DNA from: Ignavibacteria bacterium
GTDB lineage: Bacteria > Bacteroidota > Ignavibacteria > Ignavibacteriales > SURF-24
DNA: 64,000 nucleotides
Direction: 5' to 3'
Assembly (NCBI GenBank): GCA_025612375.1
Contig: JAAXKN010000002.1
Span: 1 to 64,000 of the forward strand
The notes under the pieces are model-generated. The model ran no database searches, was not told the DNA's origin, and was given only the letters and a program-made list of their open reading frames with translations. The position numbers and the translations under genes are program-made. Positions 7,958 through 39,032 of this stretch are shown in pieces. Positions within the stretch are counted from its first letter, which is position 1. Every line of letters starts with the position of its first letter.

Positions 7958-8640
7958 CCAGAATTCTGATTGTTGAAGATGAAGCCCACATGAGGATGGG
8001 GCTTGCAGACAACCTTGAGTTTGAGGGCTACGAGGTGGATCAGGCAGAAGAAGGTATGGAGGGCTTAAAGAAGATACTTGAAAATGAGTACAGCCTGATC
8101 CTGCTGGACGTGATGCTTCCAAACATGTCGGGTTTTGAGATCTGCAAAAAAATCAGGACAAAGGGAATTTCAACGCCGCTAATCCTTCTTACGGCAAAGG
8201 GTGAAGAGATTGATAAAGTCAGAGGTCTTGAGATGGGGGCTGACGATTACATAACAAAGCCATTTAGTTTAATGGAGCTCCTTGCGCGTGTAAAAGCCGT
8301 ATTAAGAAGAGGCGGGATGAACTCTTCAGGAAAGACGTCCGCCATGGCAAAGATCGGGAGGCTTGAAGTTGACTTCCCTTCCTACAACGCCTTTTCGGAC
8401 GGCTGCCAGGTGCAGATGTCGCACAAGGAATTTGAGATATTAAAATATCTTTACGAGCACAAAAACAGGGTTGTCAGCCGCGACGACCTGTTAAAGAACA
8501 TATGGGGCTATGAAGAAAGGGTTACAACGCGTACGGTGGACAATTTCATTTTAAAGCTGCGTCAGAAGATAGAAGAAGATCACGAGCACCCGCAGGTGAT
8601 CCTGACTGTGCACGGAACGGGCTACAAATTGTTGGGGTAG
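7954..8640 (+). CDS. OmpR-family response regulator
   Basis: DNA-binding partner of the kinase encoded just upstream. The receiver covers about residues 1-120, with acidic pair EDE near the start, phospho-acceptor Asp in LLDVMLP, the Thr in LLTAKG and the Lys in ITKPF. A winged-helix output domain (about 130-228) ends in the typical TVHGTGYKLLG. Length (228) is normal for PhoB/OmpR. Its targets are not known. A pair of direct repeats lies upstream of the next gene (8798-8834), as such regulators often bind, but this is only suggestive. Confidence 0.95.
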   Translation: MTRILIVEDEAHMRMGLADNLEFEGYEVDQAEEGMEGLKKILENEYSLILLDVMLPNMSGFEICKKIRTKGISTPLILLTAKGEEIDKVRGLEMGADDYITKPFSLMELLARVKAVLRRGGMNSSGKTSAMAKIGRLEVDFPSYNAFSDGCQVQMSHKEFEILKYLYEHKNRVVSRDDLLKNIWGYEERVTTRTVDNFILKLRQKIEEDHEHPQVILTVHGTGYKLLG

Positions 8641-8668
8641 ATTTTCATTTATTTTGGGAATCTCCCAT

Positions 8669-8720
8669 CCACGAGCTAAAGCTCGTGGCTATTCAACTGA
8701 GAAAGTCCGCTGAAGCGGAC
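8669..8720. repeat. REP-like double palindrome
   Basis: Two adjacent dyads: CCACGAGCT-AA-AGCTCGTGG (8669-8688, 9-bp perfect stem) and GTCCGCT-GA-AGCGGAC (8705-8720, 7-bp stem). The first is followed by CTATTCA, as is the related palindrome at 45709-45728, so they belong to one dispersed family. The gap between the response regulator and the next gene holds little else except the direct repeats near 8800. Confidence 0.75.
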
Positions 8721-8797
8721 TCAAAAATGTTTTCTAAATAACCCCCGCTAAATTATTTTTGATTGAATAGCAATAATCCACTATTTCCCTGCCCTTG

Positions 8798-8834
8798 TGA
8801 CAATTTTTTACAAACCTTTACGGAACCATGACAA
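8798..8834 (+). promoter_or_regulatory. direct-repeat operator candidate
   Basis: TTTACAAACC (8807-8816) is followed at once by TTTACGGAACC (8817-8827), and the pair is flanked by two copies of TGACAA (8798-8803 and 8829-8834) 31 bases apart, about three helical turns. OmpR/PhoB regulators bind direct repeats with a 10-11-base period, and a gene for such a regulator ends 160 bases upstream. Speculative. Confidence 0.3.
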
Positions 8835-8915
8835 CTTGTTTCAGATTAAGGCCGTCTTAACTAGTAGATTACAGATAGAAAGATCAACTAATTAAACACT
8901 TTATGGAGGCCCGAA

Positions 8916-9371
8916 ATGAAACGCAATACTTTGAAACGCAGATTAGTGAAAAGCAGCAGTCTTTTAGCCGCAGCTTTACTGGTTATGATACTTTTAACTT
9001 CCACGAGCTCTTTTGCCCAGACAAATTCAGTCCCTGTTAAAGCTTTAGTTGTAAACAGGACTGCCATCGGCAATCTCATAATGGGAATAGAATCTGACAA
9101 CACAGGCTTAAGCAGAAGCTCCATCTATTATGCCGGGCTCTACAGGGTGCCTGAGGCAGTGAAACCTCTTCTGGAGAAGATGAGGTCGGAAAGCGACGCT
9201 TCGACAAAAATACTCATTGCTTTGGCACTTTTCAGAATAGGCGACCCTGAAGGAATGGATATGATAGAATCCCTTTCAGTAAAAGACCCGGATTCCAGGG
9301 TCAGAAGAATGTGCAGCGCAATATTTAATGAATATGTTTCTCCCGATTCACTGAACTATGTCGCTCGATAA
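8916..9371 (+). CDS. small exported HEAT-repeat-like protein
   Basis: A 151-residue protein with a long basic N-terminus and a signal peptide (hydrophobic stretch about 17-30, likely cut after SFA). The mature part is helical. Residues about 70-150 contain two helix pairs of HEAT/PBS type (VPEAVKPLLEKM, then TKILIALALFRIGDPEGMDMI). Such repeats mediate protein contacts. No enzyme motif is seen. GGAGGC lies 9 bases ahead of the ATG. Following a two-component system, it may be one of its targets, but nothing proves this. Confidence 0.7.
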   Translation: MKRNTLKRRLVKSSSLLAAALLVMILLTSTSSFAQTNSVPVKALVVNRTAIGNLIMGIESDNTGLSRSSIYYAGLYRVPEAVKPLLEKMRSESDASTKILIALALFRIGDPEGMDMIESLSVKDPDSRVRRMCSAIFNEYVSPDSLNYVAR

Positions 9372-9439
9372 CATGCGGGGAAAATAATTTTAATATAAAT
9401 AAAAGAATTATTTCCGGAATTATTATATTTTAAGCCTCT

Positions 9440-10483
9440 ATGATACAGAATAAATTAAAATTATTCGTAATTACGGCATCAGTCCTGACGATGTTAAGTC
9501 AAAATGCTTTCGGTCAGGAGAGCCAATGGAAGGCGTTCGGCCTTAAAGGGAAATGGAAGTTTTCCATAGGCGACGACAAAAAATGGGCGCGCCCTGACTT
9601 TAACGACAAAGCCTGGGAGGAGATCTATGCTCCGAGTCCCTGGGAGGACCAGGGTTTCCACGGTTACGACGGTTATGCCTGGTACAGGAAGCATTTTTAT
9701 TGCCCCGCATCAGTTAAAGGGAAATCGCTTTTACTCCAAATGGGCTTTATTGATGACGTGGACGAGATTTATATCAACGGGAAGCTTGTTGGCTCTACGG
9801 GCTCATTCCCACCGGAGTACCAGACGGCTTATGACGCTGAGAGAAGATATCCAGTGCCGGAAAGCATACTTAAGATTAGCGCCGATAACGTAATTGCCGT
9901 TCGCGTCTACGACGCGGAGCTTGGAGGGGGCATCATGTCGGGAGAGCTGGGGCTTTTTGTCCGGCAGTATCCCATCTGGCCAGATGTTGCGCTCGAAGGC
10001 TACTGGAAGTTCCGCACGGGCGACAGCCCTGAGTGGAAGAATAAGGATTTTCAGGACAACGCCTGGAATGAGATTGTTGTTCCAGCTTTCTGGGAAAACC
10101 AGGGCTACGCCAACTACGACGGCTTTGCATGGTACAGGAAAAAAGTTGTTATTCCCTCGTGGCTTAACGGCAAACAGCTGGTACTGATGCTGGGTAAAAT
10201 TGACGACAAGGATGAAGTTTATTTTAACGGGAGGCTCATCGGCCGCACGGGTGACCTGAGGGAAGAGTCGACAAATGACCGTGACTACCAGATGTTCCGC
10301 GGCTACTATATACCGAAGGATATTATTACAAATGGTAATAATACCATTGCCGTAAGGGTATACGACGGTTTCAGGGACGGGGGAATTTATCAGGGACCAA
10401 TCGGCATTACCACGCAGGAAAAGTACAACCAGATGTGGAGAAAACAAAAGAAACACAAGTCGTTCTGGGAGCTCTTCTTCTAA
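9440..10483 (+). CDS. exported protein of two tandem galactose-binding-like jelly-roll domains
   Basis: A 347-residue protein with a signal peptide (residues 1-25, ending NAFGQ). The mature chain consists of two copies of one domain, about residues 30-185 and 190-335. Each copy starts with a GxWKF..GD segment, then a Trp-rich part (AWEEI..P.PWE..QG), Y/F-AWYRK, a D-E-Y/I-NG-L-GxTG turn and IAVRVYD near its end. This is the sugar-binding (N-terminal GH2-like) jelly roll found in beta-galactosidases, beta-glucuronidases and sialate O-acetylesterases, but no catalytic domain is attached. The protein therefore probably binds carbohydrate or another wall or surface ligand outside the inner membrane. 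The ligand is unknown. A hairpin follows the stop. Confidence 0.8.
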   Translation: MIQNKLKLFVITASVLTMLSQNAFGQESQWKAFGLKGKWKFSIGDDKKWARPDFNDKAWEEIYAPSPWEDQGFHGYDGYAWYRKHFYCPASVKGKSLLLQMGFIDDVDEIYINGKLVGSTGSFPPEYQTAYDAERRYPVPESILKISADNVIAVRVYDAELGGGIMSGELGLFVRQYPIWPDVALEGYWKFRTGDSPEWKNKDFQDNAWNEIVVPAFWENQGYANYDGFAWYRKKVVIPSWLNGKQLVLMLGKIDDKDEVYFNGRLIGRTGDLREESTNDRDYQMFRGYYIPKDIITNGNNTIAVRVYDGFRDGGIYQGPIGITTQEKYNQMWRKQKKHKSFWELFF

Positions 10484-10506
10484 AGGGTGTAAAATAAGCC
10501 CTTTAG
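10480..10506 (+). terminator. weak hairpin after the jelly-roll gene
   Basis: CTAAAGGG (10480-10487) and CCCTTTAG (10499-10506) form an 8-bp stem with an 11-nt loop overlapping the stop codon. No good T-run follows. Confidence 0.45.
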
Positions 10507-10589
10507 TCCGGTTTGTCCATGTCCTTTTTTTTGCGTAAATTTCGTGGCATATTTTTGGAATGTTTGATTAGAGTTCTGGAAACTGGTAA

Positions 10590-11264
10590 ATGGATTTAAG
10601 CATAAAGGATGTTGCGAACCTTCTGATGCTTGAAAAAAAGGAAATTGAGAAGTTAGTTAAAAAGAAATTAATCCCTTCCCAAACAATTCAAGACAAGGTC
10701 CGTTTCAATAAGCAGGCCATTATAGAATGGGCGCTGCTAAACAATAAGCCTCTTAACCTGTCGGATTCTGCGCAGTTCAGCGAATTCAGATTCGACGGAT
10801 TATCTGCAATACTGGATGAGGAATCGTTCTACCCGAACTGCGGCTTTACCGAAGGCAACTACATCGAAGAGATGGTGCGCATGCTCAGGCTGAAGGAGGA
10901 CATCGACCGCAATGTGATTACCGAGCTTTTGATAAGCCGCGAAAAACTGATGTCTACGGCAATCGGAAACGGGATCTCTCTGCCCCATCCAAGAATACCA
11001 ATTATACTCGGACGCGAAAAACCGCTTGTCTGCTTTTTCTTTCCCGAAAAGCCCCTCAATATTGAATCTGTTGACGGCGAGGCTGTTCATACTCTCATAC
11101 TGCTTGTTTCGCAGACAATAAAACAGCACCTGTACATGCTGGCACATTTGAGCTACCTGCTTTCAAAAGAAGAATTCCGCCTGGCTCTTAAAGGCCGCAA
11201 GGCAGCAGGTGAGGTCTTAAGGCTGGTTTCTGAACTTGAAATGCAGAGAAATAAAGTTTCTTGA
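10590..11264 (+). CDS. excisionase-type HTH fused to a PTS EIIA (type 2) domain
   Basis: A 224-residue protein in two parts. Residues 1-60 look like a MerR/excisionase helix-turn-helix (SIKDVANLLMLEKKEIEKLVKK). Residues about 85-220 are a fructose/nitrogen-type EIIA domain with the phosphorylatable His in ISLPHPR, followed by the family's CFFFPEKPLNIESVDGE stretch. EIIA-Ntr proteins are regulatory phosphocarriers rather than sugar transporters, and no PTS permease, EI or HPr gene is present here. It sits 67 bases before the Ehr membrane complex in the same direction, so it may regulate that complex in response to phosphorylation state. The fusion is known from other genomes; its job here is inference. 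Confidence 0.85.
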   Translation: MDLSIKDVANLLMLEKKEIEKLVKKKLIPSQTIQDKVRFNKQAIIEWALLNNKPLNLSDSAQFSEFRFDGLSAILDEESFYPNCGFTEGNYIEEMVRMLRLKEDIDRNVITELLISREKLMSTAIGNGISLPHPRIPIILGREKPLVCFFFPEKPLNIESVDGEAVHTLILLVSQTIKQHLYMLAHLSYLLSKEEFRLALKGRKAAGEVLRLVSELEMQRNKVS

Positions 11265-11331
11265 TATTCAGCCCAAGGCATGCAGTTTTTCATTCTCGTG
11301 CTAACCGGACATATAGTTTAACAGGAATAAA

Positions 11332-13332
11332 ATGATTTTGAATTTATTTGCTATTGGACTCATAATCCAACTCCTGGGCGCATTAGTGCCCCTTTTTATT
11401 AAAGGCGACAAAAAGTTTTCGGCTTTAAGCCACTTTACGGCGCTTGCAGGCGTCGGGGTAAGCTTTATTGGAACGCTTGGCATGATGATCTTCCAAAACG
11501 CCGGAATTGTGGGCATCTTTGAAAGCCCTGCCTGGGGCGTTATAAGCCTCAGGTTCGACATGCTGGCGCTTTTCTTTACGGCTATAGTTCAGCTTTTAAG
11601 CATACCGGTCCTTGTCTACAGCTTCAGCTATCAGAAGCCTTATATTGAAGAGGGAAAAAGCATAAGGCTTCCGGTGTTCTCGTTTATTACGCTTACCATT
11701 TCGCTTCAGGTGCTTACAATTGCAAACCACGCAATACTGTTCCTGATATTCTGGGAGCTGATGGCGGTACTTTCATACATCAACATGATATTTGAAAACG
11801 AGAAGCCTGAGGTTCAGAAAGGAAGCTTTGTCTACTTTGTCGCAACACACGCCGCAACTTTTATTCTTTATGTCTTTTTCCTTATACTGCACGCCAGGAC
11901 AGGCTCGTGGAATTTCTCTGACTTTCACCTTACAAATGACGGCACCGCACTTTATTACGTCCTGTTTGCCCTTGGCTTTATCGGTTTCGGCATCAAGGCG
12001 GGCTTCATGCCGTTTCATTTCTGGCTTCCCAAAGCGCACCCGGTTGCACCTACTTACCTGAGCGCATTCTTGTCGGGCGTAATAATTAAGCTTGGTATCT
12101 ACGGCATCTTCAGGGTAGTGGAATTCTTAACTCCCAGTGATCCCTGGATCGGCTGGGCAGTTTTGGTAATAAGCCTTATAAGCGCCATTTTCGGCGTCTG
12201 GTATGCCCTGGCGCAGCACGACGTTAAGACTCTTTTGGCCTATCACTCAATTGAAAATATAGGCATTATAGGAATGGGTTTAGGCCTCGGCATTTTAGGC
12301 ATGTCTTACGGCAGCCAGACAGTTGCAGTACTCGGTTTTGCAGGAGCGCTTCTTCACACGCTTAACCATGCAATTTTCAAAAGCCAGCTTTTTATGGGTT
12401 CAGGCATAATTTACCAGAACCTGCATACAAGAAATATTGAAAAGATGGGGGGCATTGTGCATTACGCCCCGTGGCTTACGGCTTTCTTTTTAATTGGATC
12501 CGTTGCAATTTCAGGCATCCCGCCATTAAACGGTTTTATCTCGGAATTTATAATTTATAACGGGCTCTTCCAGTCCGGAAACCTTGCTCCTAACTACACG
12601 ATTTTTATGCTCATTGTTGTTGTGGGGCTTGCGCTTGTAGGCGGGCTTGCAGTTGCGTGCTTTACAAAGGTAAACTCAATTATGTTCCTGGGTTCAAAGA
12701 GAACTGATTTTAAGAAGTTTAATGTCTCTAAAGCCGAGTATTTCTCCATTGGGTTTCCTGCCCTTCTCTGCATTGCAATAGGGCTTTATCCCATGCCTGC
12801 CTTAAGGGTGGTCTCCGGGGTAATTGAAGGGCTTGGCCTCAAGGGCTTCAGCCTGGCGCATTATGGGGCGTCATTTAATATGCTGCCGGACTTTCTGCCG
12901 CTTACAATGATATTTGTGCTCCTTTTCGCCCTCATTGGAATATTCTACGGAATAAAGAAATTCCGCTCCTCAAGGGCTTCGGGAATAAGGGTTTCAAAAG
13001 CCTGGGGCTGCGCCTACGACGGGCTGACGGCAAGGATGCAGTACACTGCGTCTTCGTATGCTGACGAGCTTAATTCAATTCCGGCAAACATTCTTCTTAT
13101 CAAAGAGCACGCATTAGTCCCGCAGGATATATTCCCTGTAAGAGGCGCACACTTTGAATCGCATTCTGAAGATTACACGGAAAAGAAACTGGTAATGCCG
13201 GTTTACACAAGGATAATCGAAACATTCAAGAAAGCCGGGATATTAAACAGGCACGACATCAGGGTTTACATTGCATACATGCTCGTGGCTCTTATAGCAT
13301 ACTGCGTAATCGGATTTTTATGGAAATATTAA
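11332..13332 (+). CDS. hyfB: Hyf/Ehr complex antiporter-like subunit (HyfB type)
   Basis: A 666-residue membrane protein of the proton-conducting NuoL/M/N family, with about 16 hydrophobic segments. The central part has the conserved pattern of these subunits: a Lys in GFGIKAGFMPFHFWLPKAHPVAP, a Lys/His stretch in AQHDVKTLLAYHSIENIG, and a HTLNHAIFKS stretch with another Lys. These lie on the ion path of complex I relatives. The C-terminal tail (SKAWGCAYDGLTARMQY) is typical of HyfB/HycC. It opens a six-gene set (hyfB, C, E, F, G, I) with short gaps that encodes one membrane complex. Ion pumping is inferred from the family; H+ or Na+ cannot be told. Confidence 0.92.
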   Translation: MILNLFAIGLIIQLLGALVPLFIKGDKKFSALSHFTALAGVGVSFIGTLGMMIFQNAGIVGIFESPAWGVISLRFDMLALFFTAIVQLLSIPVLVYSFSYQKPYIEEGKSIRLPVFSFITLTISLQVLTIANHAILFLIFWELMAVLSYINMIFENEKPEVQKGSFVYFVATHAATFILYVFFLILHARTGSWNFSDFHLTNDGTALYYVLFALGFIGFGIKAGFMPFHFWLPKAHPVAPTYLSAFLSGVIIKLGIYGIFRVVEFLTPSDPWIGWAVLVISLISAIFGVWYALAQHDVKTLLAYHSIENIGIIGMGLGLGILGMSYGSQTVAVLGFAGALLHTLNHAIFKSQLFMGSGIIYQNLHTRNIEKMGGIVHYAPWLTAFFLIGSVAISGIPPLNGFISEFIIYNGLFQSGNLAPNYTIFMLIVVVGLALVGGLAVACFTKVNSIMFLGSKRTDFKKFNVSKAEYFSIGFPALLCIAIGLYPMPALRVVSGVIEGLGLKGFSLAHYGASFNMLPDFLPLTMIFVLLFALIGIFYGIKKFRSSRASGIRVSKAWGCAYDGLTARMQYTASSYADELNSIPANILLIKEHALVPQDIFPVRGAHFESHSEDYTEKKLVMPVYTRIIETFKKAGILNRHDIRVYIAYMLVALIAYCVIGFLWKY

Positions 13333-13346
13333 TAGCGTTATAAATA

Positions 13347-14267
13347 ATGGAAATACTCTCTAAAATACTTATTTACCTCATTTTCATCTTTGCGGCCCCT
13401 TTGTTTATAGGGATCGTGAATAAGCTGAAAGCCCGCTTAACCGGAAGGATAGGTCCTTCAATATTCCAGTCTTATTACGATCTAAGGCGCCTGATGAGAA
13501 AGGAAACAATTTACGCCACCTCGGCATCTTTTATCAGCCGCGTGTCTCCTGTAGTAAGCTTTGCAAGCATACTCTTTGCCGGGATGATTCTGCCTATAGG
13601 TTTTACGAGGCCACTGATCAGCTTTAACGGCGATTTGATACTTTTTGCCTATCTGTTGGGGTTATCCAGATTTTTCCAGATACTGGGAGCCATGGACATT
13701 GGAAGCTCATTTGAAGGCATGGGCGCGGCTCGTGAGGCAACATTTGCGGTCTTTGCCGAACCGATCTACTTTTTTACGCTTGGAAGCCTGGCATTCATAT
13801 TCGGGCAAACTTCTATGTATGAGATCTTTCACTCAATTACGCTTAACGATCCGTCGTTCCTCGTATTTATAGCTGTAGCCAGCATATCGGTTTTCTTCCT
13901 TATGATTACCGAGACCTCCAGAATGCCGGTAGATGACCCGAATACGCACCTGGAGCTTACGATGATACACGAAGTAATGATACTTGATAACTCGGGGCAG
14001 GACTTGTTTTTATACCAGTATTCAGCGTACCTGAAGATATTGATCTATGCGACTTTTACTTCAAACTTCTTTAATCCGTTTAATGCTCAGAACTATGCAT
14101 TAGGATTTTTTGTCTATCTGGCGGTAATGATGGCACTAATAGCCTGCCTGGTATGGGTTGAAACCATGCTCGGGCGTTTTAAGATGAAGAGTATCCCGCA
14201 GTACCTGCTTTTTGCGGCATCAATAGGAATTCTTAATCTTCTGATTTATTCATTCTTTAAGAGATAA
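13347..14267 (+). CDS. hyfC: Hyf/Ehr complex NuoH-like subunit (HyfC type)
   Basis: A 306-residue membrane protein of the NuoH/HycD/EchB family with eight or so TM segments. It anchors the soluble NiFe-like module to the membrane arm. Family marks include LTGRIGPSIFQSYYDL near residue 30, AAREATFAVFAEP near residue 130, and the loop TSRMPVDDPNTHLELTMIHE near 195, whose acidic residues are conserved in the ion/quinone-like path. It starts 14 bases after hyfB and is followed by hyfE after 10 bases, so it is part of the same operon. Confidence 0.93.
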   Translation: MEILSKILIYLIFIFAAPLFIGIVNKLKARLTGRIGPSIFQSYYDLRRLMRKETIYATSASFISRVSPVVSFASILFAGMILPIGFTRPLISFNGDLILFAYLLGLSRFFQILGAMDIGSSFEGMGAAREATFAVFAEPIYFFTLGSLAFIFGQTSMYEIFHSITLNDPSFLVFIAVASISVFFLMITETSRMPVDDPNTHLELTMIHEVMILDNSGQDLFLYQYSAYLKILIYATFTSNFFNPFNAQNYALGFFVYLAVMMALIACLVWVETMLGRFKMKSIPQYLLFAASIGILNLLIYSFFKR

Positions 14268-14277
14268 GTTTTACACA

Positions 14278-14913
14278 ATGGGAAATGTATTAAACATACT
14301 GTTTTGTCTGAGCCTTCTTTATCTTGCAACCACAACAAGGGTGACGGCGTATCTTAAAGTGTTTGTCCTGCAGAGCATACTCCTCTTTTTTATTGTCATG
14401 CTCCCTCTGTTAAACCACATATCTGTCTTTACGCTGCTGCTTCCCTTGACGATACTGGTTGTAAAAGCGATACTGATACCCTGGTACATAAGAAAAAAGA
14501 TCATCTACGAGCTGGAGATAAATACAACGATTGAGTCCAACATTCAGCAGTTCAATTTCCTTTTGCTTTCAGTCTTCTCGATGGTTGCTGTTTTTGTCTT
14601 CTGCAATATTATTACGAAAGACGCAGCTGTAGCCCCAATACCTTTTTCCGCCGCTTTCTCTAGCGTTGTAATAGGGCTTTACGTAATAATATTCAGGAAG
14701 AAACTGATTGTGCACGTAATAGGATTTCTTGTAATGGAAAACGGCATTTTCCTTCTGGGCATTGCCGTTGCAAGCGAGATGCCGTTTTTAATTGAGCTTG
14801 GGATGCTGCTGGATATTTTTGTAGTGGTATTCTTAATGGGAATTGCGATAAACAGGATTTCTTCGACCTTTGCCGCCGATGAAGTCTCGGCGCTGGACAA
14901 ACTGAAAAATTAA
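14278..14913 (+). CDS. hyfE: Hyf/Ehr complex HyfE-type membrane subunit
   Basis: A 211-residue hydrophobic protein with six or seven TM segments, related to HyfE. This subunit combines NuoK-like features with extra helices. The NuoK-like part is near residues 140-200 (VMENGIFLLGIAVASEMPFLIELGMLLDIF), where buried Glu residues match those of NuoK. It lies between hyfC and hyfF. A 66-base gap follows it with no clear signal; an ACCTTAACCTAAAC stretch there looks like chance. Confidence 0.88.
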   Translation: MGNVLNILFCLSLLYLATTTRVTAYLKVFVLQSILLFFIVMLPLLNHISVFTLLLPLTILVVKAILIPWYIRKKIIYELEINTTIESNIQQFNFLLLSVFSMVAVFVFCNIITKDAAVAPIPFSAAFSSVVIGLYVIIFRKKLIVHVIGFLVMENGIFLLGIAVASEMPFLIELGMLLDIFVVVFLMGIAINRISSTFAADEVSALDKLKN

Positions 14914-14979
14914 AAGAATAACCGGGTCAAGAATCCGTATGGATACTTAACCTTAACCTAAACATTAACATTTTTTAAG

Positions 14980-16434
14980 ATGCTCGTTTTAATTTACATA
15001 CTCATCCTACCGCTTTTAGCCGGAGGATTGTTTTTCATACCGGGAGGCAGGAAGCTGAAGTATCAGCTTTCGCTTATGGTTTCAATAATTCATCTTGTTA
15101 CCTCGTACCTGGTATTTACAGGCTTTGCCACGCCGGCAGATTCGCAGTGGTTCAGGTGGGATGCTTTTACAAAGCTTTTCCTACTGGTGCTTTCGCATAT
15201 TTACTTCTGGGTAATTCTGAACTCATGGCATTTTATAAACCAGTCTTCTACCTACAGCCCGGAAAAGTCGAGGAAAAGTTTCTTCAGCATGATGAACCTG
15301 TATCTTTTTGCAAATACCCTGGCTTTAGTGAGCAATCATCTGGGGCTTTACTGGGTGGCTCTGGAATCGACGACGCTTTGCGTGGCGCCGTTGATATACT
15401 ACTACCGCAATAAAGAGTCGCTGGAAGCCATGTGGAAATACCTGTTTTTGGTTTCAGTAGGTATTGCATTTGCTTTTATAGGGATACTATTTCTGGCGCT
15501 TTCGGCACAGGGAACGGATATATTTGAAAAGGGGCTTTTCTTAAACGATTTAATTGAAGGCTCCTCTAAGCTTAACCTCGTATGGCTGAAGGCGGGTTTT
15601 ATATTTATTTTTGCGGGCCTCAGCACAAAAGCCGGAATTGCACCTATGCATCCGGGTGAAGTTGACGCCCTAAGCAACTCCCCGAGCCCCGTTGCGGCAC
15701 TTGTTTCAGCATCCTTAAGCGAGACGGCCTTAATCGGAATTTTCCGCCTCCTGCAGATTACAGCCGGAACGCAGGTGCACCAGTTTGCGCAGGTGCTCAT
15801 GATTACAGGAGGCGTCGTCTCACTTCTTGTTGCCGTGGTTTTTATGTTCAGGGTAACGAACTTTAAGAGGATGATTGCCTATTCGAGTGTTGAGCACATA
15901 GGACTAATTGTTCTTGGGGCAGGCATCGGCGGCCCGGCGCTAATTGGCTCAATGCTCCACATGGTATACAACTCACTAAATAAAACCGCAATGTTTTTAA
16001 TGGCAGGCAACATTCACAGGGCATACAAGTCGCGTGAAGCCAAAGATGTAAAAGGCGTGCTTAAAAATATGAGGTGGACGGGAATACTTTTTATGCTGGC
16101 TTTCCTGGCTGTAGTTGCAATGCCTCCTTTCGGGCTATTCTTCAGCGAGCTTATGATATTCCGCGGGCTTATTGAAGCTGAGCGCTATGTGCTGCTTGCA
16201 GTAATTCTCTTTATACTTCTTTTCGTCTTTATAGGGATGAGCCGCCAGACATTTTCAATTTTATACGGGAAGACCGACACCTCTTCGGGCCAAAAGCCCG
16301 CGACGGATGAAAAATTCAATATATCTCACCTTTCGGCCATGGCACTGCTTCTTCTGCTGGCACTTTCAGGGCTTTTTATGCCGGGCAGTTTTATAGGTGT
16401 GATAAATCAAATTGCAGGAGAGCTTACAAGATGA
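14980..16434 (+). CDS. hyfF: Hyf/Ehr complex antiporter-like subunit (HyfF type)
   Basis: A 484-residue second proton-conducting transporter subunit of the NuoL/M/N family, with about 14 TM segments. Conserved stretches include LYWVALESTTL (Glu in TM5), AGLSTKAGIAPMHPGEVDALSNSPSPVAAL (Lys in TM7) and the FKRMIAYSSVEHIGLIVLG loop. Two different antiporter-like subunits (HyfB and HyfF) in one complex are usual for Hyf and Ehr and suggest more than one ion path. The stop overlaps the hyfG start by 4 bases (ATGA). Confidence 0.92.
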   Translation: MLVLIYILILPLLAGGLFFIPGGRKLKYQLSLMVSIIHLVTSYLVFTGFATPADSQWFRWDAFTKLFLLVLSHIYFWVILNSWHFINQSSTYSPEKSRKSFFSMMNLYLFANTLALVSNHLGLYWVALESTTLCVAPLIYYYRNKESLEAMWKYLFLVSVGIAFAFIGILFLALSAQGTDIFEKGLFLNDLIEGSSKLNLVWLKAGFIFIFAGLSTKAGIAPMHPGEVDALSNSPSPVAALVSASLSETALIGIFRLLQITAGTQVHQFAQVLMITGGVVSLLVAVVFMFRVTNFKRMIAYSSVEHIGLIVLGAGIGGPALIGSMLHMVYNSLNKTAMFLMAGNIHRAYKSREAKDVKGVLKNMRWTGILFMLAFLAVVAMPPFGLFFSELMIFRGLIEAERYVLLAVILFILLFVFIGMSRQTFSILYGKTDTSSGQKPATDEKFNISHLSAMALLLLLALSGLFMPGSFIGVINQIAGELTR

Positions 16435-17912
16435 AACGTTTAACCGTACAGAACCAGAGGCCTTTTGAACTCTCCCTGGTTCCTGAACTGACAGCTGCGG
16501 AATTTGAGGCAGAAGGAAGGCAGATTTTAAGCGAAGGAAGCCGCATGATGGGGCTTTTTGAAGTTGAAAAGACTTCAGGCGGCAAAAAAGTGCTTGCCGT
16601 TTTCGGCAACAATGAGACTTCGCAGATATACATCGTTAAATGTGTTTTTCCCAAAGAAGGTGAGCGCTTCAGGAGTTTTGCATATGAATTTCCAAACACA
16701 AACTATTTTGAATGCGAGCTGGCTGAAAACTCCGGTATTCTTCCGGAAGGGCACCCGTGGCTGCGTCCGGTAAGGAAGCAGAATACAATTTTGGGGAATA
16801 TTCCCTATCAGTTCTACAGGGTGGAAGGTGACGAGGTCCACGAGGTTGCAGTAGGCCCCGTACACGCGGGAGTAATTGAGCCGGGGCATTTCCGTTTTCA
16901 GTGCCACGGTGAGACGGTCTATCACCTGGAGATCAGTCTTGGCTATCAGCACAGGGGTATAGAGAAGCTCCTTCTAAAGGCTGATGACAACAAGCGCGCC
17001 CTGCTTGTTGAATCCATTGCAGGAGACACGGTCATAGGCCACAGCATGGCATATTCACTTGCCATGGAGGCTTTGTCCAAAACAGGCGTTTCATTAAGAG
17101 CAAGCGTAATCCGCTCCATAGCCGAGGAGCTGGAAAGAGTTGCAATGCACCTCTCCGGGCTTTCAGGAGTGGCAAACGACGTGGGTTTTGCAATAGGTGC
17201 TGCTGCATACGGGCGCTTAAGGACTCTCGTAATTAACAGCCTTCTTCTGATCTCGGGCTCCAGGTTCGGGCGCGGGCTTGTGCGTCCCGGAGGCGTAATG
17301 TATGACCTCACGGAAGGCGCGGTAAAGAAAATTACAGAAAACCTCCTCATAGTGCAGAAGGATATTGCAGAGATCAACGACTTTATGTTCAGCTCCACTT
17401 CTGTTATGACGCGTCTTGAGGCAACGGGTAAAGTCCACTACAAGTGGGCAAGTGAGGTAGGGATGGTTGGACCTGCTGCCAGGGCTTCAGGTGTAAAGAC
17501 CGACGTAAGGCAGGATTTCCCGTACGGAGCCTACCGCTATCATGCAACGCAGACCGTAACGCTGGACTCGGGTGACGTTTTTGCGCGCGCCCGGATCCGC
17601 TCGCTTGAAATTGAGGAGTCCCTTGGATTTATACTTGAAAGGTTTGTGGACATCCCGCAGGGTGAAATATTCTCTGAGGTGAAGGCTCTCAGGGAAAACA
17701 CGGGTGTCATATCCTTAAGCGAGGGGTGGCGAGGCGAAATAATGCACGCCATATTAACAGGTCCCGACGGGAAGATCTCCTCTTACAAGGTTAAGGATCC
17801 GTCATTTAACAACTGGTACGGCCTGGCTCTTTCGGTAAGGGGCGAGGGGATTTCAAATTTCCCGCTCTGCAACAAGAGCTTTGACCTGTCTTATTCAGGG
17901 CATGACCTCTGA
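16431..17912 (+). CDS. hyfG: NiFe-hydrogenase-like large subunit without Ni ligands (Ehr type, HyfG-like)
   Basis: A 493-residue fusion. Residues 1-140 match the NuoC-like domain, and about 150-493 the NuoD/hydrogenase large-subunit fold. The Ni-binding cysteines are absent. Where HyfG/HycE have RICGIC, this protein reads ESIAGDT (residues 194-200). Where they have DPCxxC near the C-terminus, it reads DPSFNNW (456-462). The only cysteines lie elsewhere and none forms a CxxC. The context HRGIEKL before the first site and FPLCNKSFDLSYSGHDL at the end match the Ehr group described as a link between group 4 hydrogenases and complex I. It therefore cannot hold a NiFe site, and no hyp or protease maturation genes occur here. 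The substrate is unknown. Confidence 0.93.
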   Translation: MKRLTVQNQRPFELSLVPELTAAEFEAEGRQILSEGSRMMGLFEVEKTSGGKKVLAVFGNNETSQIYIVKCVFPKEGERFRSFAYEFPNTNYFECELAENSGILPEGHPWLRPVRKQNTILGNIPYQFYRVEGDEVHEVAVGPVHAGVIEPGHFRFQCHGETVYHLEISLGYQHRGIEKLLLKADDNKRALLVESIAGDTVIGHSMAYSLAMEALSKTGVSLRASVIRSIAEELERVAMHLSGLSGVANDVGFAIGAAAYGRLRTLVINSLLLISGSRFGRGLVRPGGVMYDLTEGAVKKITENLLIVQKDIAEINDFMFSSTSVMTRLEATGKVHYKWASEVGMVGPAARASGVKTDVRQDFPYGAYRYHATQTVTLDSGDVFARARIRSLEIEESLGFILERFVDIPQGEIFSEVKALRENTGVISLSEGWRGEIMHAILTGPDGKISSYKVKDPSFNNWYGLALSVRGEGISNFPLCNKSFDLSYSGHDL

Positions 17913-17957
17913 TAAAGGACGGTTTAGAATAATTTTTAACATTTTACTTATAATTCT

Positions 17958-18707
17958 ATGTATAAAGGCTTAAAGATACGCCTGGCTCAGGGAGAGCCGG
18001 CGATAAAAGATTTACAGAAGGCCAGCCTGCCTGAATTGTTCAGGGGTATGCCGCAGATTGACGGGCAGAAGTTTACAGACGGCGGCAAAAAGTGCCTTGA
18101 GGCGTGCCCGACAGGCGCAATTTTACCTGACCCATTAAGAATAGACCTGGGGAAATGCACATTCTGCTCACTCTGCACCAAAGCCAATCCTGAAGGAGCA
18201 ATCAGTTTTACCTCTGAATACCACATGTCTTCATCGACGCGTGAAGGGCTCATAACAGACGGCAGTGTGAAGATGATAAGGCCGGAAATGGCATCTGAGA
18301 AGATAAGGAAGTATTTCGGGCGCTCACTCAAATTAAGGCAGGTTTCTACAGGCGGCTGCAACGGCTGCGAGCTGGAGCTAAACGCGCTGGGCAATGTGAA
18401 CTTTGACCTCGGGCGATACGGGATTGAATTTGCCGCCTCGCCGCGCCACGCTGACGGAATTGTAGTAACGGGCCCGGTATCAAAAGCCATGTCAAAGGCG
18501 CTTTATGAAACCTATGAGGCCGTTCCGAACCCTAAGATCATCATTCTTTTCGGGGTGTGCGCAATAAGCGGCGGCGTCTTCCAGGATTCTGAGGAGATTG
18601 ACCGCTCGTTCCTTAAGGACTTCAGGGCCGACCTTTACATTCCGGGATGTCCTCCCCACCCTTTGACATTCATCTCCGGGATAATGGACTGGCTGGACAG
18701 GAAGTAA
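17958..18707 (+). CDS. hyfI: ferredoxin-NuoB fusion, electron-transfer small subunit of the Ehr complex (HyfI-like)
   Basis: A 249-residue iron-sulfur protein. The N-terminal part (about 35-85) is a reduced ferredoxin domain: C46, C50, C67, C70 and C73 remain, enough for one 4Fe-4S cluster (C67, C70, C73 plus C50), while the second cluster is lost. The rest is a NuoB/HycG-like domain with all four proximal-cluster ligands: C134 and C137 in GGCNGCE, C201 in GVCAISGG and C231 in PGCPPHP. The spacing is of hydrogenase type, not the CC pair of NuoB. The ferredoxin domain may replace the separate HyfH/HycF subunit, which is missing. Electrons could thus still reach the Ni-less large subunit. Last gene of the operon; a terminator follows. 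Confidence 0.92.
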   Translation: MYKGLKIRLAQGEPAIKDLQKASLPELFRGMPQIDGQKFTDGGKKCLEACPTGAILPDPLRIDLGKCTFCSLCTKANPEGAISFTSEYHMSSSTREGLITDGSVKMIRPEMASEKIRKYFGRSLKLRQVSTGGCNGCELELNALGNVNFDLGRYGIEFAASPRHADGIVVTGPVSKAMSKALYETYEAVPNPKIIILFGVCAISGGVFQDSEEIDRSFLKDFRADLYIPGCPPHPLTFISGIMDWLDRK

Positions 18708-18730
18708 ACCTAAAAAAATCCTTTTAGCAG

Positions 18731-18759
18731 GGGCGGACTTTTGGATTTTAAGTCCGCCC
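18731..18759 (+). terminator. hairpin terminator after the Ehr operon
   Basis: Perfect 10-bp stem GGGCGGACTT (18731-18740) / AAGTCCGCCC (18750-18759) with a 9-nt loop, 24 bases after the stop of the small-subunit gene. No strong T-run follows, so it may be partial. Confidence 0.7.
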
Positions 18760-18880
18760 AATCTGTCCCAAAATCGAACACGTGGCTAATAATGACCAAG
18801 TGACAACTCACTTCAAATAAAATAAGGCCCAAAATCTTCCATTTTCGCACTTTTTTCCCTCTTTCAGCCCGAAAATCAGG

Positions 18881-18896
18881 TGGTATATTCTTTGCA
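18881..18896 (+). promoter_or_regulatory. sigma-54 promoter candidate of the flagellar operon
   Basis: TGGTATATTCTTTGCA matches the -24/-12 pattern TGGCAC-N5-TTGCA: the GG and GC doublets are exactly 10 bases apart, and TGG plus TTGCA are intact. It lies 28 bases ahead of the first gene of the motility block, a normal distance for a start site plus a short leader. Sigma-54 control of flagellar genes is known in many bacteria. No rpoN or activator gene is in this window. Confidence 0.6.
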
Positions 18897-18923
18897 CTTC
18901 TAAGCAAAAAATTACTAGATGAA

Positions 18924-19151
18924 ATGAATAAGATTATCGTACAAATAGGGTTATTGGTTTTTTTTATTTCAGTCATCTTTTTCGGACAAAAAGAAATGGC
19001 AATCCAGGATATTCTCGTGCGCTCCCTGGTCTTGTTCGCCGCCTCTACAATAATGCTTAGTGTTTTGTACCTGGTTTTTGTAAGGTCGATAAACAAGATG
19101 TCCGTTTCCAAAAGGAAAAGTTTTTCAGATAACATTGGCAGAGGACAGTAA
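18924..19151 (+). CDS. small two-TM membrane protein at the head of the flagellar operon
   Basis: A 75-residue protein with two hydrophobic segments (about 5-21 and 29-53) and a basic tail rich in Lys, Arg and Ser. I do not recognise the family. It starts 28 bases after the sigma-54 promoter candidate and stops 2 bases before fliA, so it is very likely cotranscribed with the motility genes and probably real in spite of its length. Its role is unknown. Confidence 0.6.
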   Translation: MNKIIVQIGLLVFFISVIFFGQKEMAIQDILVRSLVLFAASTIMLSVLYLVFVRSINKMSVSKRKSFSDNIGRGQ

Positions 19152-19153
19152 CT

Positions 19154-19780
19154 ATGAATACTGCGCTTTTATGGACCGAGTTTAAGCAGTCGCACAATTC
19201 TGATTTGAAGAAGCAGATCATGATGAACTATACGAATCTGGTTCATTATGTCATACACAATTCCAAGTTCATATCTTTGAACATTGTGGATGACAGGGAT
19301 TACTTTCAGTTTGGAATCGAGGGCTTAAGCGAAGCAATAGACAGGTTCGATCCTGAATACGGCACGAAATTCGAAACTTATGCAATACAGCGTATACGCG
19401 GAAAAATAATAGACGAGCTCAGGAAAATTCAGATCAAGCCGAGGAGTGCCAACGGTACAGACGGCGATACAACATATACGAACGTCTCACTGAATAACTC
19501 ATACGATGAGGAAGACGGTTATATGCTTTATGAAGTGATCCCGAATGAAGATGAATTACCCGATGAGACTCTGGACAAAAGTGAAGCTAAAGAACTGCTT
19601 ATAAACGCAATTAAAAAATTAGAAGAAAGGGACAGACTGGTATTAACTTTATACTATTACGAGAATTTGAATTACAAAGAGATTGCACAGGTTCTGAATA
19701 TTACGGTTTCGCGCGTTTCGCAGATACATTCTAAAATAATTCAGGAACTTAAACACAAGCTCGTAAGACAGTATGACTGA
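19154..19780 (+). CDS. fliA: flagellar sigma factor sigma-28 (FliA)
   Basis: RNA polymerase sigma factor for late flagellar genes. The 208 residues contain region 2 (YFQFGIEGLSEAIDRFDPEYGTKFETYAIQRIRGKIIDELRK in pieces, about 55-95) and region 4 (LEERDRLVLTLYYYENLNYKEIAQVLNITVSRVSQIHSK in pieces, about 155-195). The DPEYGTKFETYA-IRGKIIDELR pattern is typical of FliA/WhiG rather than of ECF factors. It is shorter than E. coli FliA (239), mainly in the linker. It overlaps the next gene by 8 bases. Being first in the cluster, it could start its own positive loop, but I saw no clear sigma-28 promoter in the window. Confidence 0.93.
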   Translation: MNTALLWTEFKQSHNSDLKKQIMMNYTNLVHYVIHNSKFISLNIVDDRDYFQFGIEGLSEAIDRFDPEYGTKFETYAIQRIRGKIIDELRKIQIKPRSANGTDGDTTYTNVSLNNSYDEEDGYMLYEVIPNEDELPDETLDKSEAKELLINAIKKLEERDRLVLTLYYYENLNYKEIAQVLNITVSRVSQIHSKIIQELKHKLVRQYD

Positions 19781-20651
19781 AACAACGCCGGAACTCCAGA
19801 AGAGAAAAGAAAAAAGCAAGTCGGTACTTGCGCAAGTCTATAACCTGCCTTCCATACCTCTGGTAATGATGGAAGTTACCAGACTTTTAAATAACCCTAA
19901 TACAAGCGCAATTGAGCTTGCAAAAGTCATCAGCCGCGACCAGGCGCTTGTTACGAAAATACTTACTGTGGCCAACAGTCCCTTATACGGGCTGCCCAGA
20001 AGAGTTTCTACGATTGATTTTGCCATTATCATTCTGGGCTTCGACCATATTAAAAATATAGTCATTGCCCTTTCAATGATGGAGGCCTTTAAGAATAAAA
20101 GCGATAAAAACCTGAACCAGAAGAATTACTGGACGCATTCAATACTGACTGCAAGCGCTGCAAAGAGGATAGCCGACGACCTGGGGTTTCATTTTACGGG
20201 AGAGGCCTTTACAGCAGGACTGCTGCACGACCTCGGCATACCGGTAATTCACAAGTATTTCAACAATGAATTTATTAAGATCCAGGAGCTTGCAGAAAAA
20301 GAAGACATGAGCTTCAAGGAAGCACAGCAGGAGACAATAGGCCTCGAGCACCAGCAGATTGGAAACCTCCTGGCGCAGAGGTGGAACCTCCCCCTTTCGC
20401 TCAGCGACGCCATACTGAACCATCACATGCCCTCACAGGCCGAACAGAATCAGCCCCTGGCGGCAATTGTACACCTGGCGGATTATATGACGGTAAAGCT
20501 TGCTACAGGGAGCTTCCTCTGGGATAAAAATTACGAACTGGACAGGTCAGTGATTGCAACTCTCAACCTGAGGGACGAGGAGTTCCTGGAAAACTTTATT
20601 AACCGTTATAAGGAGCCCTTCCTTAGTCAGGTAAACTCAATTCAGATATAA
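19773..20651 (+). CDS. HDOD-domain signalling protein, copy 1
   Basis: A 292-residue protein dominated by an HDOD domain (about 20-225), an HD-related helical fold without proven phosphodiesterase activity. Marks include LPSIPLVMMEVTRLL, VISRDQALVTKILTVANSPLYGLPR, FAIIILGF, GLLHDLGIPV, LEHQQIGNLLAQRW and LNHH. HDOD proteins often sit in chemotaxis, c-di-GMP or motility circuits. The next gene encodes a close paralogue of the same length, so the pair arose by tandem duplication. The start overlaps the fliA end by 8 bases. Confidence 0.9.
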   Translation: MTETTPELQKRKEKSKSVLAQVYNLPSIPLVMMEVTRLLNNPNTSAIELAKVISRDQALVTKILTVANSPLYGLPRRVSTIDFAIIILGFDHIKNIVIALSMMEAFKNKSDKNLNQKNYWTHSILTASAAKRIADDLGFHFTGEAFTAGLLHDLGIPVIHKYFNNEFIKIQELAEKEDMSFKEAQQETIGLEHQQIGNLLAQRWNLPLSLSDAILNHHMPSQAEQNQPLAAIVHLADYMTVKLATGSFLWDKNYELDRSVIATLNLRDEEFLENFINRYKEPFLSQVNSIQI

Positions 20652-20688
20652 GTCATAATTTTAACATAATAATAGCAGAACAAGAACA

Positions 20689-21567
20689 ATGGATATCGAA
20701 TTATTTAACAGGCAGGAAAAAAGAGAAAAAACAGAGCTGGTATTATCAAATGTTTATAATCTGCCAGCTATTCCCACGATCATGATGGAAATTTCACGCT
20801 TGCTGGAAAAACCTTCTACTACCACAGCAGAGCTTGCCAAGGTAATAGGCAGGGACCAGGGAATAGCTTCCAAAGTGCTGTCCATTGCAAATTCACCCCT
20901 TTACGGGCTCCCGAGAAAAGTCTCTACAATAGACTTTGCCATACTCATTATCGGTTACCAGGATATTAAAAATATTGTAACCGCGCTTTCAATGGTTGAG
21001 TCCTTTAAGAATAAGACCGATAAGAACTTAAACCAGAAGGATTTCTGGCTGCATTCAATTATGACCGGCCTTGCCTCAAAGAAGATGGCAGAGGATCTGG
21101 GTTACCGCTCGGGCTCTGAGGCTTTTGTTGCGGGCCTTATTCATGACCTCGGCATCCCGGTTATACATAAATATTTCCATACGAACTTTATTGTCATCTG
21201 CGAGAAGGTGACTACAAATAAAATAAGCTATATGGAAGCCGAATTTGACACCCTGGGCTTAAGCCACCAGGAAATAGGACGTTTTCTGGCTTCAAAGTGG
21301 AATCTTCCCCTGGCTTTATGCGACACGATACTTAATCATCATACTCCTTCGCTTGCGCAGGAGAACAGGACATTAACCTCACTTGTCCACCTTGCAGACT
21401 ATGCGACGCATAAGCTGAATGTTGGGCATTTTTACTGGGATGACGAATACACGCTCGACAGCTCGATACTGGAGACATTTAAGTTCAACGACATGGCACA
21501 GCTTGACAAGTTTATTCAGGGCTACAAGGACATTTTTGTCCAGGAAGCTAATACACTGAGGATTTAA
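20689..21567 (+). CDS. HDOD-domain signalling protein, copy 2
   Basis: A 292-residue paralogue of the gene before it, colinear from end to end: VYNLPAIPTIMMEISRLL, VIGRDQGIASKVLSIANSPLYGLPRK, GLIHDLGIPVIHKYF and LNHHTPS all align. The conserved core is almost identical while the N-terminus and the last 60 residues have diverged, so the copies may bind different partners. It is followed 2 bases later by the TTG start of a degenerate kinase. A role in flagellar regulation is inferred from place only. Confidence 0.9.
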   Translation: MDIELFNRQEKREKTELVLSNVYNLPAIPTIMMEISRLLEKPSTTTAELAKVIGRDQGIASKVLSIANSPLYGLPRKVSTIDFAILIIGYQDIKNIVTALSMVESFKNKTDKNLNQKDFWLHSIMTGLASKKMAEDLGYRSGSEAFVAGLIHDLGIPVIHKYFHTNFIVICEKVTTNKISYMEAEFDTLGLSHQEIGRFLASKWNLPLALCDTILNHHTPSLAQENRTLTSLVHLADYATHKLNVGHFYWDDEYTLDSSILETFKFNDMAQLDKFIQGYKDIFVQEANTLRI

Positions 21568-38147: not shown

Positions 38148-38219
38148 GAACTAGTCTATTTCCTTAAGGAATTTCCCGGCTTCGGCTGAAGGATAATTTG
38201 TTTCGAAATAGACTAGTTC
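38148..38219. repeat. 15-bp perfect inverted repeat at the convergent gene ends
   Basis: GAACTAGTCTATTTC (38148-38162) is repeated inverted as GAAATAGACTAGTTC (38205-38219), with 42 bases between. One arm covers the stop codon of the DUF6599-like gene, the other lies in its last codons. Located between the end of the flagellar block and that convergent gene, it could act as a bidirectional terminator. Confidence 0.7.
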
Positions 38220-39023
38220 ATCATCCCCGGTCTTCCTCATTGCCTTAAGAATCCCGTTTTTGCTTACAGATAATAGAGCTTCGGGAAGGTTCTTAAAACC
38301 TGCTTTTTCGTGAAAGTCCTTCATATCCACGGCTGAGGAAAACTTAATCTTTGCGATATAAGCGTAGCCTGAAGAGGTTTCAATGGGAAGAATGTACATG
38401 GAAAAATTCCCGTAGCGGTCGAACTGATCGCTCCAGGCGGGAAACCCATTCTGGACTCCGAGCTTCCCGTGGAAGAGTTTCAGTTCACCCCTATAAGGCT
38501 GAAAAATGTCTTTCTGAAAAAGCATGGGAATTTCAATTGAATCCTGTGCGATTTTACCTGTAATTATCCTTACCAGCTCCTTGGAAAGGAAGATTTCTTC
38601 ATTTGTCCCGTTATCGTTTATTGCCGAGATGTAGTACCTGTCGCGTGCAGCCACTGTCTGGTAATTTGAAATGCAGTTAAAGCCCGGAAGAGAGTCTGCA
38701 GGAGAGCACTTAAAGCGTGAGATTGAAAAGATACCGAATGAGGCCTGCGGGTCCTTCATCCTGTATACTTCAAGCTTAAAGTGATGATTTTTATAATTTA
38801 CTTCCTGGAGGCGGAGCCTGGAGAATCCGTATTCCAGGTAAACGTCGGCACCACCGTCTATATAGCCCCAGAGAGACTTTCCGTCGAAGTAGTCGTTTCT
38901 GAGGATTTCTCCTGACGGTAAATCCTGAGGGTTGATGCCGGGCATTTCATCAGTCTGGCAGAAAGCAGGAGCTGATGCTGCCAGAAACAACAGAATAAAA
39001 GCAATAAAAACTTTCTTTTTCAA
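38151..39023 (-). CDS. exported DUF6599-like protein
   Basis: A 290-residue protein with a signal peptide (1-22, ending AFCQ). The mature start has SLWGYIDGGADVYLEYGF, which I associate with the DUF6599 family of unknown function, followed by a mixed alpha/beta body (KLEVYRMKDPQASFGIFSISRF). No catalytic motif is evident. It follows the Tat-exported DUF362 gene by 9 bases on the same strand, and the two are likely cotranscribed. Confidence 0.75.
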   Translation of the reverse strand: MKKKVFIAFILLFLAASAPAFCQTDEMPGINPQDLPSGEILRNDYFDGKSLWGYIDGGADVYLEYGFSRLRLQEVNYKNHHFKLEVYRMKDPQASFGIFSISRFKCSPADSLPGFNCISNYQTVAARDRYYISAINDNGTNEEIFLSKELVRIITGKIAQDSIEIPMLFQKDIFQPYRGELKLFHGKLGVQNGFPAWSDQFDRYGNFSMYILPIETSSGYAYIAKIKFSSAVDMKDFHEKAGFKNLPEALLSVSKNGILKAMRKTGDDELVYFETNYPSAEAGKFLKEID

Positions 39024-39032
39024 ACTAATCCC

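Follow-up and report, generated by a model that had tools for sequence, protein, structure and literature searches.

Here we describe an Ehr-type locus, encoding a membrane complex that resembles group 4 [NiFe] hydrogenases without their nickel ligands, in a 64,000-nucleotide stretch of DNA from an Ignavibacteria bacterium (hereafter the window; contig JAAXKN010000002.1 of assembly GCA_025612375.1). The window lies on contig C2 of a 5.2-Mb genome, 100% complete by the tool's estimate, whose nearest named relatives are Bacteroidota/Ignavibacteriales metagenome-assembled genomes (MAGs). Statements about this genome rest on family searches. Pfam and NCBIfam models identified six intact, co-directional open reading frames on the + strand (11332-18707), of hyfB, hyfC, hyfE, hyfF, hyfG and hyfI type in that order (Table 1). 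A preliminary description of the window had placed these six hyf-like genes at 10590-18707. The genes stand, but the start does not: the gene at 10590 is not of hyf type and had been overlooked as a separate fusion of a helix-turn-helix (HTH) domain with a type 2 EIIA domain of the phosphotransferase system (PTS). Both antiporter-type subunits match NCBIfam hydrogenase 4 models, hyfB that of subunit B (4.7e-148, under the equivalog cutoff) and hyfF that of subunit F (NF005044, 1.3e-79, under cutoff). The hyfG and hyfI products are referred to as EhrL and EhrS.

Table 1 Positions of the Ehr genes, the adjoining HTH-EIIA gene and selected motifs in the window
Feature	Position	Strand	Evidence
HTH_17 + PTS_EIIA_2 fusion protein, 224 aa, proposed Ehr operon regulator	10590..11264	+	Pfam PF12728, PF00359
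Codon of EIIA His133 (LPHPR), predicted phosphorylation site	10986..10988	+	invariance in aligned copies
hyfB / ehrA, NuoL/M/Mrp-type antiporter subunit, 666 aa	11332..13332	+	PF00361 1.9e-51
hyfC / ehrB, NuoH-like membrane anchor, 306 aa	13347..14267	+	PF00146 5.6e-34; alignment with HyfC, HycD, NuoH
hyfE / ehrC, N-terminally extended NuoK-like subunit, 211 aa	14278..14913	+	PF00420; NF008556 hydrogenase 4 membrane subunit 4.3e-13
hyfF / ehrD, the other antiporter-type subunit, 484 aa	14980..16434	+	PF00361 1e-41
hyfG / ehrL, large subunit without Ni ligands, 493 aa, NuoC-like + NuoD/HycE-like	16431..17912	+	PF00346 1.6e-34
Glu150 codon of ehrL, retained counterpart of MbhL E21 proton-relay Glu	16878..16880	+	alignment
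ESIAGDT (ehrL 194-200), in place of first Ni motif (D/E)R(I/V)CGIC	17010..17030	+	alignment
DPSFNNW (ehrL 456-462), conserved Ehr motif, not a Ni motif	17796..17816	+	aligns to AATYANW of HycE
FDLSYSGHDL (ehrL 484-493), C-terminal counterpart of LDPCYSCTDR	17880..17909	+	alignment
hyfI / ehrS, small subunit, 249 aa, with ferredoxin domain at the N-terminus + NuoB/HycG-like domain	17958..18707	+	PF01058 1.2e-26, PF00037 2.4e-5
EhrS ferredoxin-domain cysteines; inner (presumed N6b-type) cluster complete, outer (presumed N6a-type) lost	18093..18188	+	
EhrS CNGC (C134, C137), hydrogenase-type proximal-cluster ligands; C201 at 18558-18560, C231 at 18648-18650	18357..18368	+	

The evidence supports assigning the locus to Ehr, a family already described; the kind itself is not new. 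It combines a group-4-hydrogenase-like gene cluster and a lack of Ni-binding CxxC pairs with a placement among known Ehr. In a tree of 49 large subunits, all Ehr sequences (38 rows, including Geobacteraceae and about a dozen other phyla) form a single clade with a Shimodaira-Hasegawa-like approximate likelihood-ratio (SH-aLRT) support of 100, apart from the [NiFe] hydrogenases and NuoD. The NuoD set likewise groups together (100), but the tree gives weak resolution (69) as to which of HycE/HyfG and NuoD is the nearer neighbour of Ehr. The AlphaFold2 model of EhrL (predicted local distance difference test score, pLDDT, 90.2) is closest in fold to HycE (E 1.0e-30, TMq 0.88), followed by complex I NuoCD (1.9e-25), and HycE is also the closest solved chain by sequence. 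The Ehr assignment in the preliminary description is borne out by this tree, by the lack of the Ni ligands in all 95 relatives aligned and by the absence of HypD; the literature agrees with its remark that Ehr is described as a group without a settled reaction.

The survey of relatives also returned variant loci. A second Ehr subtype (L044, L045 and L085b) has the C-terminus (I/V)NKSFNLSYSGNDR, and the verrucomicrobial locus L085 (4252-19934) holds a tandem pair of Ehr clusters, the second being of this other subtype (VNKSFNLSYSGNDR C-terminus). L114 (10001-12282) and L083 (3-3283) encode large and small Ehr subunits with no membrane genes nearby; in L083, an HTH-EIIA gene lies directly 5' of hyfG, and two hyfB-like genes and a SulP-like transporter follow ~4-9 kb downstream (7060-12371). 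Beside the Ehr genes of L092, from Phycisphaerales, is a second divergent hydrogenase-like cluster (17800-21291, - strand) with genes of hyfI, hyfC and hyfG type at 26-37% identity. The window's genome has three further NuoD loci, on contigs C1, C7 and C23 (L029-L031). That on C7 is a complex I of the 11-subunit type, whose same-genus copy (L032) has nuoA to nuoN lined up in a single row that lacks nuoEFG.

Loss of the nickel site and the retained proton route

We aligned EhrL by HMMER to HycE of Escherichia coli (7z0s_E, 3.7e-40) and to MbhL (6cfw_L). ESIAGDT, at residues 194-200, lies opposite DRVCGIC of HycE, and over residues 194-205 HycE DRVCGICGFAHS corresponds to EhrL ESIAGDTVIGHS; the preliminary description had rightly read this segment as the site where RICGIC is expected. 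Its second motif was misplaced. DPSFNNW (456-462), taken as the counterpart of DPCxxC, aligns to AATYANW of HycE and is thereby ruled out as a Ni motif; the real counterpart lies 28 residues downstream at the C-terminal end, where SFDLSYSGHDL (483-493, the last 11 residues) aligns with SLDPCYSCTDR. Despite this correction, the loss of both motifs stands: ligand positions 197, 200, 487 and 490 are A, T, S and G, with S487 and G490 replacing the cysteines of the second motif, and none of the four cysteines is present. Across a MAFFT alignment of 95 EhrL proteins, with a few duplicate records among them and, judging by record titles, a dozen phyla or more, the four ligand columns read A/C/S, T/S, S and G. 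No protein has the four Ni cysteines, and 87 of the 95 have no cysteine at any ligand position. This cross-phylum comparison makes it unlikely that hydrogen is the substrate common to Ehr.

A search for hidden CxxC pairs in the ehrL frame and the two other forward frames found none in the ehrL frame; the only other match is a chance one, in a frame interrupted by 32 stops. A frameshift or sequencing error behind the motif loss is excluded because the same residues recur in independent relatives at 83, 68, 47 and 46% identity. The C-terminus of EhrL coincides with the end of processed hydrogenases and has no protease extension, which suggests that a maturation protease would not be needed. The preliminary description had called for a check on hyp maturation genes: a family search did not find HypD in the window's genome, complete by estimate, and HypD is absent from 7 of 14 good-quality Ehr-bearing genomes. 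Ehr is therefore independent of Ni-Fe cofactor assembly. Neither the four Ni cysteines nor the Hyp machinery that mark a group 4 [NiFe] hydrogenase are thus found here; the sister genomes G002 and G004, of the same family, separately encode a genuine group 4 [NiFe] enzyme in which both CxxC pairs are present, plus HypD.

What surrounds the emptied site can be compared using a published list of features that separates hydrogenase, the sulfane sulfur reductase MBS and complex I, in which MbhL E21 is key for proton reduction (PMC7684303). E150 of EhrL aligns with E21; this position is Glu in 94 of 95 Ehr proteins and in all four [NiFe] references, and Gly in every NuoD examined. R434, the Arg of the RGE motif, is Arg in Ehr and [NiFe] enzymes and Lys in NuoD. 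At the column of Nqo4 Y87, the quinone tyrosine of NuoD, Ehr and hydrogenases both have Gly (Gly198 in EhrL). H174, the equivalent of Nqo4 H38, is kept in 91 of 95. In EhrS, C134, C137, C201 and C231 match in alignment the four cysteines that bind the proximal cluster in HycG, as had been proposed, and CNGC has hydrogenase spacing, aligning without gaps to MbhJ and HycG and showing no MBS-type shortening. With E150, R434 and the CxxC spacing kept, the alignments thus establish that EhrL retains the hydrogenase second sphere and a putative proton route, not the metal.

These features bear on two candidate reactions. MBS is a solved Ni-less relative that reduces a soluble substrate in its vacated cavity (PMC7684303), and Ehr could by analogy be a sulfane or polysulfide reductase acting directly at the proximal cluster. 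However, MBS has a motif shortened by three residues, a three-Cys proximal cluster, no E21 Glu and no H38 His, and keeps two Ni cysteines (PMC7684303), whereas the window's Ehr has the full CxxC motif, four Cys, the Glu and the His, and none of the four Ni cysteines. We consider an MBS-like activity very unlikely.

Alternatively, Ehr could be a ferredoxin:menaquinone oxidoreductase, similar to complex I without its NADH module, that binds quinone in the emptied NiFe cavity and pumps protons. The architecture is the same as that of complex I, the host carries MenD and three complex I sets, and H174 is kept; yet this His is kept in [NiFe] enzymes too and is not diagnostic, and Gly198 and CNGC stand where complex I has the quinone-site Tyr and the adjacent CC of NuoB. 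We surveyed MenD and MqnA/D in 20 other Ehr-bearing genomes, chosen for breadth and weighted to lineages possibly lacking quinones. MenD exceeded its cutoff in 3 (two Omnitrophota, one Bacteroidota) and MqnA/D in 4. Neither pathway was found in 13 (all seven Melainabacteria, four spirochaetes, one elusimicrobium and one kiritimatiellid), a count drawn mostly from MAGs of unstated completeness, which covers menaquinone pathways, not ubiquinone genes; scavenging is a possibility. The quinone-pathway-lacking genomes present on the EhrL alignment have the same pocket residues, and a quinone pathway is likewise missing in Ehr-bearing Riflemargulisbacteria (PMC6349859). Because 13 of 20 genomes lack both menaquinone pathways, quinone is doubtful as a family-wide acceptor; it is unlikely to be the common one, unless it is scavenged or the substrate varies between lineages. 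On balance, we regard the menaquinone alternative as improbable. The earlier statement that the real donor and acceptor are unknown was fair, yet the choice is narrowed by these indications against a family-wide quinone and for hydrogenase-type delivery of protons and electrons.

Electron entry, selection and a proposed linked regulator

The single ferredoxin cluster ascribed to EhrS was confirmed: C50, C67, C70 and C73 are complete, while the other cluster is down to C46 (F39, G43 and N77 stand at its other positions). In NuoI numbering, we take the complete cluster to be the inner, N6b-type one, next to the proximal cluster, and the other to be the outer, N6a-type one. The outer cluster is incomplete in 26 of 89 EhrS proteins and the inner in 6, and parsimony on a quick tree of EhrS gave 11 changes for the outer cluster and 2 for the inner. 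The outer cluster has been lost repeatedly, including in the window, an observation that is new as far as we could check. The loss in the window is recent, because a same-genus relative (G001) has both clusters. EhrS of L050, L051, L077, L100 and L116 (Omnitrophota and Gemmatimonadota) lacks both ferredoxin clusters and keeps the proximal cysteines.

Possible electron donors in the window's genome include three enzymes of the pyruvate/2-oxoacid:ferredoxin oxidoreductase (POR) family. A formate-linked Ehr, in which formate dehydrogenase feeds electrons in, has been hypothesised for Riflemargulisbacteria (PMC6349859), and Ehr subunits are more abundant in Geobacter grown on formate (PMC7894505), where such a link has also been suggested. 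The window's genome does encode one FdhA/NasC-type molybdenum enzyme on another contig, but it scores 517 bits against the Fdh-alpha cutoff of 666 and matches NasC as well. No formate dehydrogenase was found in the window's neighbourhood and no such family is recurrent around the 80 Ehr loci whose flanks were compared, which excludes it as a conserved neighbour. This proposal also leaves the product side unexplained, and we judge it quite improbable. The commonest unassigned neighbour family is of response-regulator type (10 loci), followed by a SulP-like transporter (7 loci). In the sister genome G004, inspection by eye found a heterodisulfide-reductase-like/MvhD/FeS oxidoreductase cluster ~10 kb downstream of Ehr (L027, 12474-19541), a possible electron partner not seen elsewhere.

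Loss of the Ni site and of the outer FeS cluster in the window might suggest a decaying, non-functional hydrogenase relic, as asserted for Geobacter KN400: PMC13194489 calls Ehr nonfunctional, lacking the NiFe centre, accumulating mutations and under relaxed selection. Against this, the six genes are intact, with ratios of nonsynonymous to synonymous substitution rates (dN/dS) of 0.046-0.108 relative to a same-genus genome. The residues that replace and surround the Ni ligands (G198, D199, N481, K482, S483, S487, Y488, G490 and D492) do not vary in any of the 95 EhrL proteins, so that the replacement motifs are fixed over at least a dozen phyla, and both gene order and a dedicated regulator are conserved. 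In hyfB, the counterparts of NuoM E144, K234, K265 and E407 are all present. With an invariant pocket, a dN/dS of about 0.1 and intact pump residues, Ehr is not a relic; we hold the relic reading to be scarcely credible. Judged from these sequences, the Ehr complex is genuine and conserved under purifying selection, and the data speak against the published view, at least where the entire family is concerned.

The HTH-EIIA gene points to the proposed regulator. We searched with a hidden Markov model (HMM) of its product: of 61 loci with sufficient upstream sequence, 41 have the gene directly adjoining the first hyfB on its upstream side, and in a further six (L076, L085, L096, L104, L106 and L124) it overlaps the cluster or lies within it. 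Among 248 genomes of the phylum, seven have a full-length copy, all within the 11 that carry Ehr and each <8 kb from ehrL by coordinates (P = 3e-11, hypergeometric test); in the other 76 matching genomes the match is confined to the EIIA domain, whole or nearly. Locus linkage and the restriction of full-length copies to Ehr genomes exclude a chance neighbour, and in Bacteroidota the full-length gene is specific to Ehr (7 of 7 copies), which is new as far as could be checked. It is not universal, since several Melainabacteria and Geobacteraceae loci have no HTH-EIIA nearby. The phosphoacceptor His is invariant in 48 of 48 aligned copies; the predicted His is also present in A2, and the genes for enzyme I (EI) and HPr stand side by side in the same genome. 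HTH-EIIA is probably a phosphorylation-controlled transcription factor of the Ehr operon. EIIA-Ntr directly controls K+ transport, and by analogy a direct control of pump activity would also be possible. A literature search on PTS IIA/EIIANtr with hydrogenase or Ehr found no paper on a link between them among the hits listed. Promoter-like sites were no more frequent than in shuffled sequences and terminator-like sites barely more so; neither were used.

Elsewhere in the window, a tandem pair of GH2-type sugar-binding domains without a catalytic domain (9440-10483) lies upstream of Ehr, a position conserved only in the same genus. Adjoining DUF6599 and DUF362 proteins (38151-40229, - strand) are encoded just downstream of a flagellar gene run, and a 722-aa radical-SAM protein (45790-47958, - strand) resembles PhpK P-methyltransferase and C-methyltransferases of ribosomally synthesized and post-translationally modified peptides (RiPPs), well under the cutoffs.

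A proposed electron-fed pump among known systems

Gene content, Ni-ligand loss, conservation, the proton- and electron-relay and pump residues, purifying selection and the EIIA association can be read from the sequence; from them we infer a direction of electron flow, a ferredoxin donor, a non-quinone acceptor, a pumped ion and a regulatory logic. Our best reading, to which we assign a probability of roughly 0.4, is that Ehr is a Ni-less, electron-fed ion pump that reduces a small non-quinone molecule. A low-potential donor, most likely ferredoxin reduced by the three PORs, would deliver electrons to the one cluster left in the ferredoxin domain of EhrS, from which they would pass to the fully Cys-ligated proximal cluster adjoining EhrL and its emptied NiFe cavity. 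In this cavity, a small and probably polar molecule would be held by D199, N481, K482, S483, S487, Y488 and D492, in place of the Ni ligands, together with R434, and reduced with protons arriving via E150. The energy released would power the movement of ions via hyfC, hyfE and both antiporter subunits, hyfF and hyfB; this redox coupling is predicted from the intact pump residues. Expression would be set by HTH-EIIA, whose DNA-binding domain would read the phosphoenolpyruvate (PEP)-dependent phosphorylation state of the cell.

Several points weigh against this pump model. The literature searched holds no measured substrate, product or ion for any Ehr. E150, R434 and the pocket positions are placed by sequence alignment. 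In hyfF, the Glu of transmembrane helix 5 (TM5), the TM7 Lys and the TM12 Glu are kept, and the TM8 Lys is replaced by Glu, giving E, K, E, E. The host itself has MenD (439.6 bits), so that quinone is available to it, and the limits of the quinone survey given above apply here. Finally, entry through the ferredoxin domain cannot hold for every member, as some Gemmatimonadota and Omnitrophota have lost both clusters.

A broader claim, which we regard as doubtful, is that Ehr would constitute a distinct energy-converting class, whose invariant residues would bind a small polar substrate in the cavity and reduce it with protons from the former hydrogenase relay, independent of quinone and nickel, and tied by HTH-EIIA to PEP-dependent phosphotransfer signalling. 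If true, Ehr would stand as a third solution, next to hydrogenase on the one hand and complex I/MBS on the other. Ehr occurs in at least a dozen phyla and includes a Mycobacterium tuberculosis locus; the interest lies in making its reaction testable. There are four handles: a precise pocket signature open to mutation, a proton route whose retention favours proton-coupled chemistry, organisms free of quinone for testing the pump, and a dedicated regulator, whose target genes would reveal the conditions under which the complex serves.

Among known systems, the Ehr loci of Geobacter (GSU0739-0745) and M. tuberculosis (Rv0082-0087) share with the window the subunit plan, the absence of Ni ligands and the gene order, and the window falls in one clade with Geobacteraceae loci. 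It differs in the loss of the outer ferredoxin cluster and in having HTH-EIIA where the M. tuberculosis locus presumably has an ArsR-type regulator. Geobacter-type loci such as L107 have two hyfB-type subunits, whereas the window has one. HycE/HyfG of E. coli formate hydrogenlyase and hydrogenase 4 (group 4a [NiFe]) share with EhrL a fused NuoC-like domain and with Ehr the proton-relay Glu, the RGE Arg and the CxxC proximal motif. Unlike in formate hydrogenlyase, the functions of HycF and HycG are fused in EhrS; unlike HycE, EhrL has lost the four Ni cysteines and is encoded with a mature C-terminal end, in a genome without HypD. MBS of Pyrococcus furiosus is, like Ehr, a Ni-less group 4 descendant with a vacated cavity, set apart by its two remaining Ni cysteines, three-Cys proximal cluster and lack of E21 and H38 equivalents (PMC7684303). 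Complex I (NuoCD, NuoB and NuoH/L/M/N) shares the homologous core, the pump residues and the absence of a NiFe site; Ehr differs from it in having no NADH module and no Tyr87 equivalent, in the hydrogenase-type E150 and R434, and in a CxxC where NuoB has adjacent CC.

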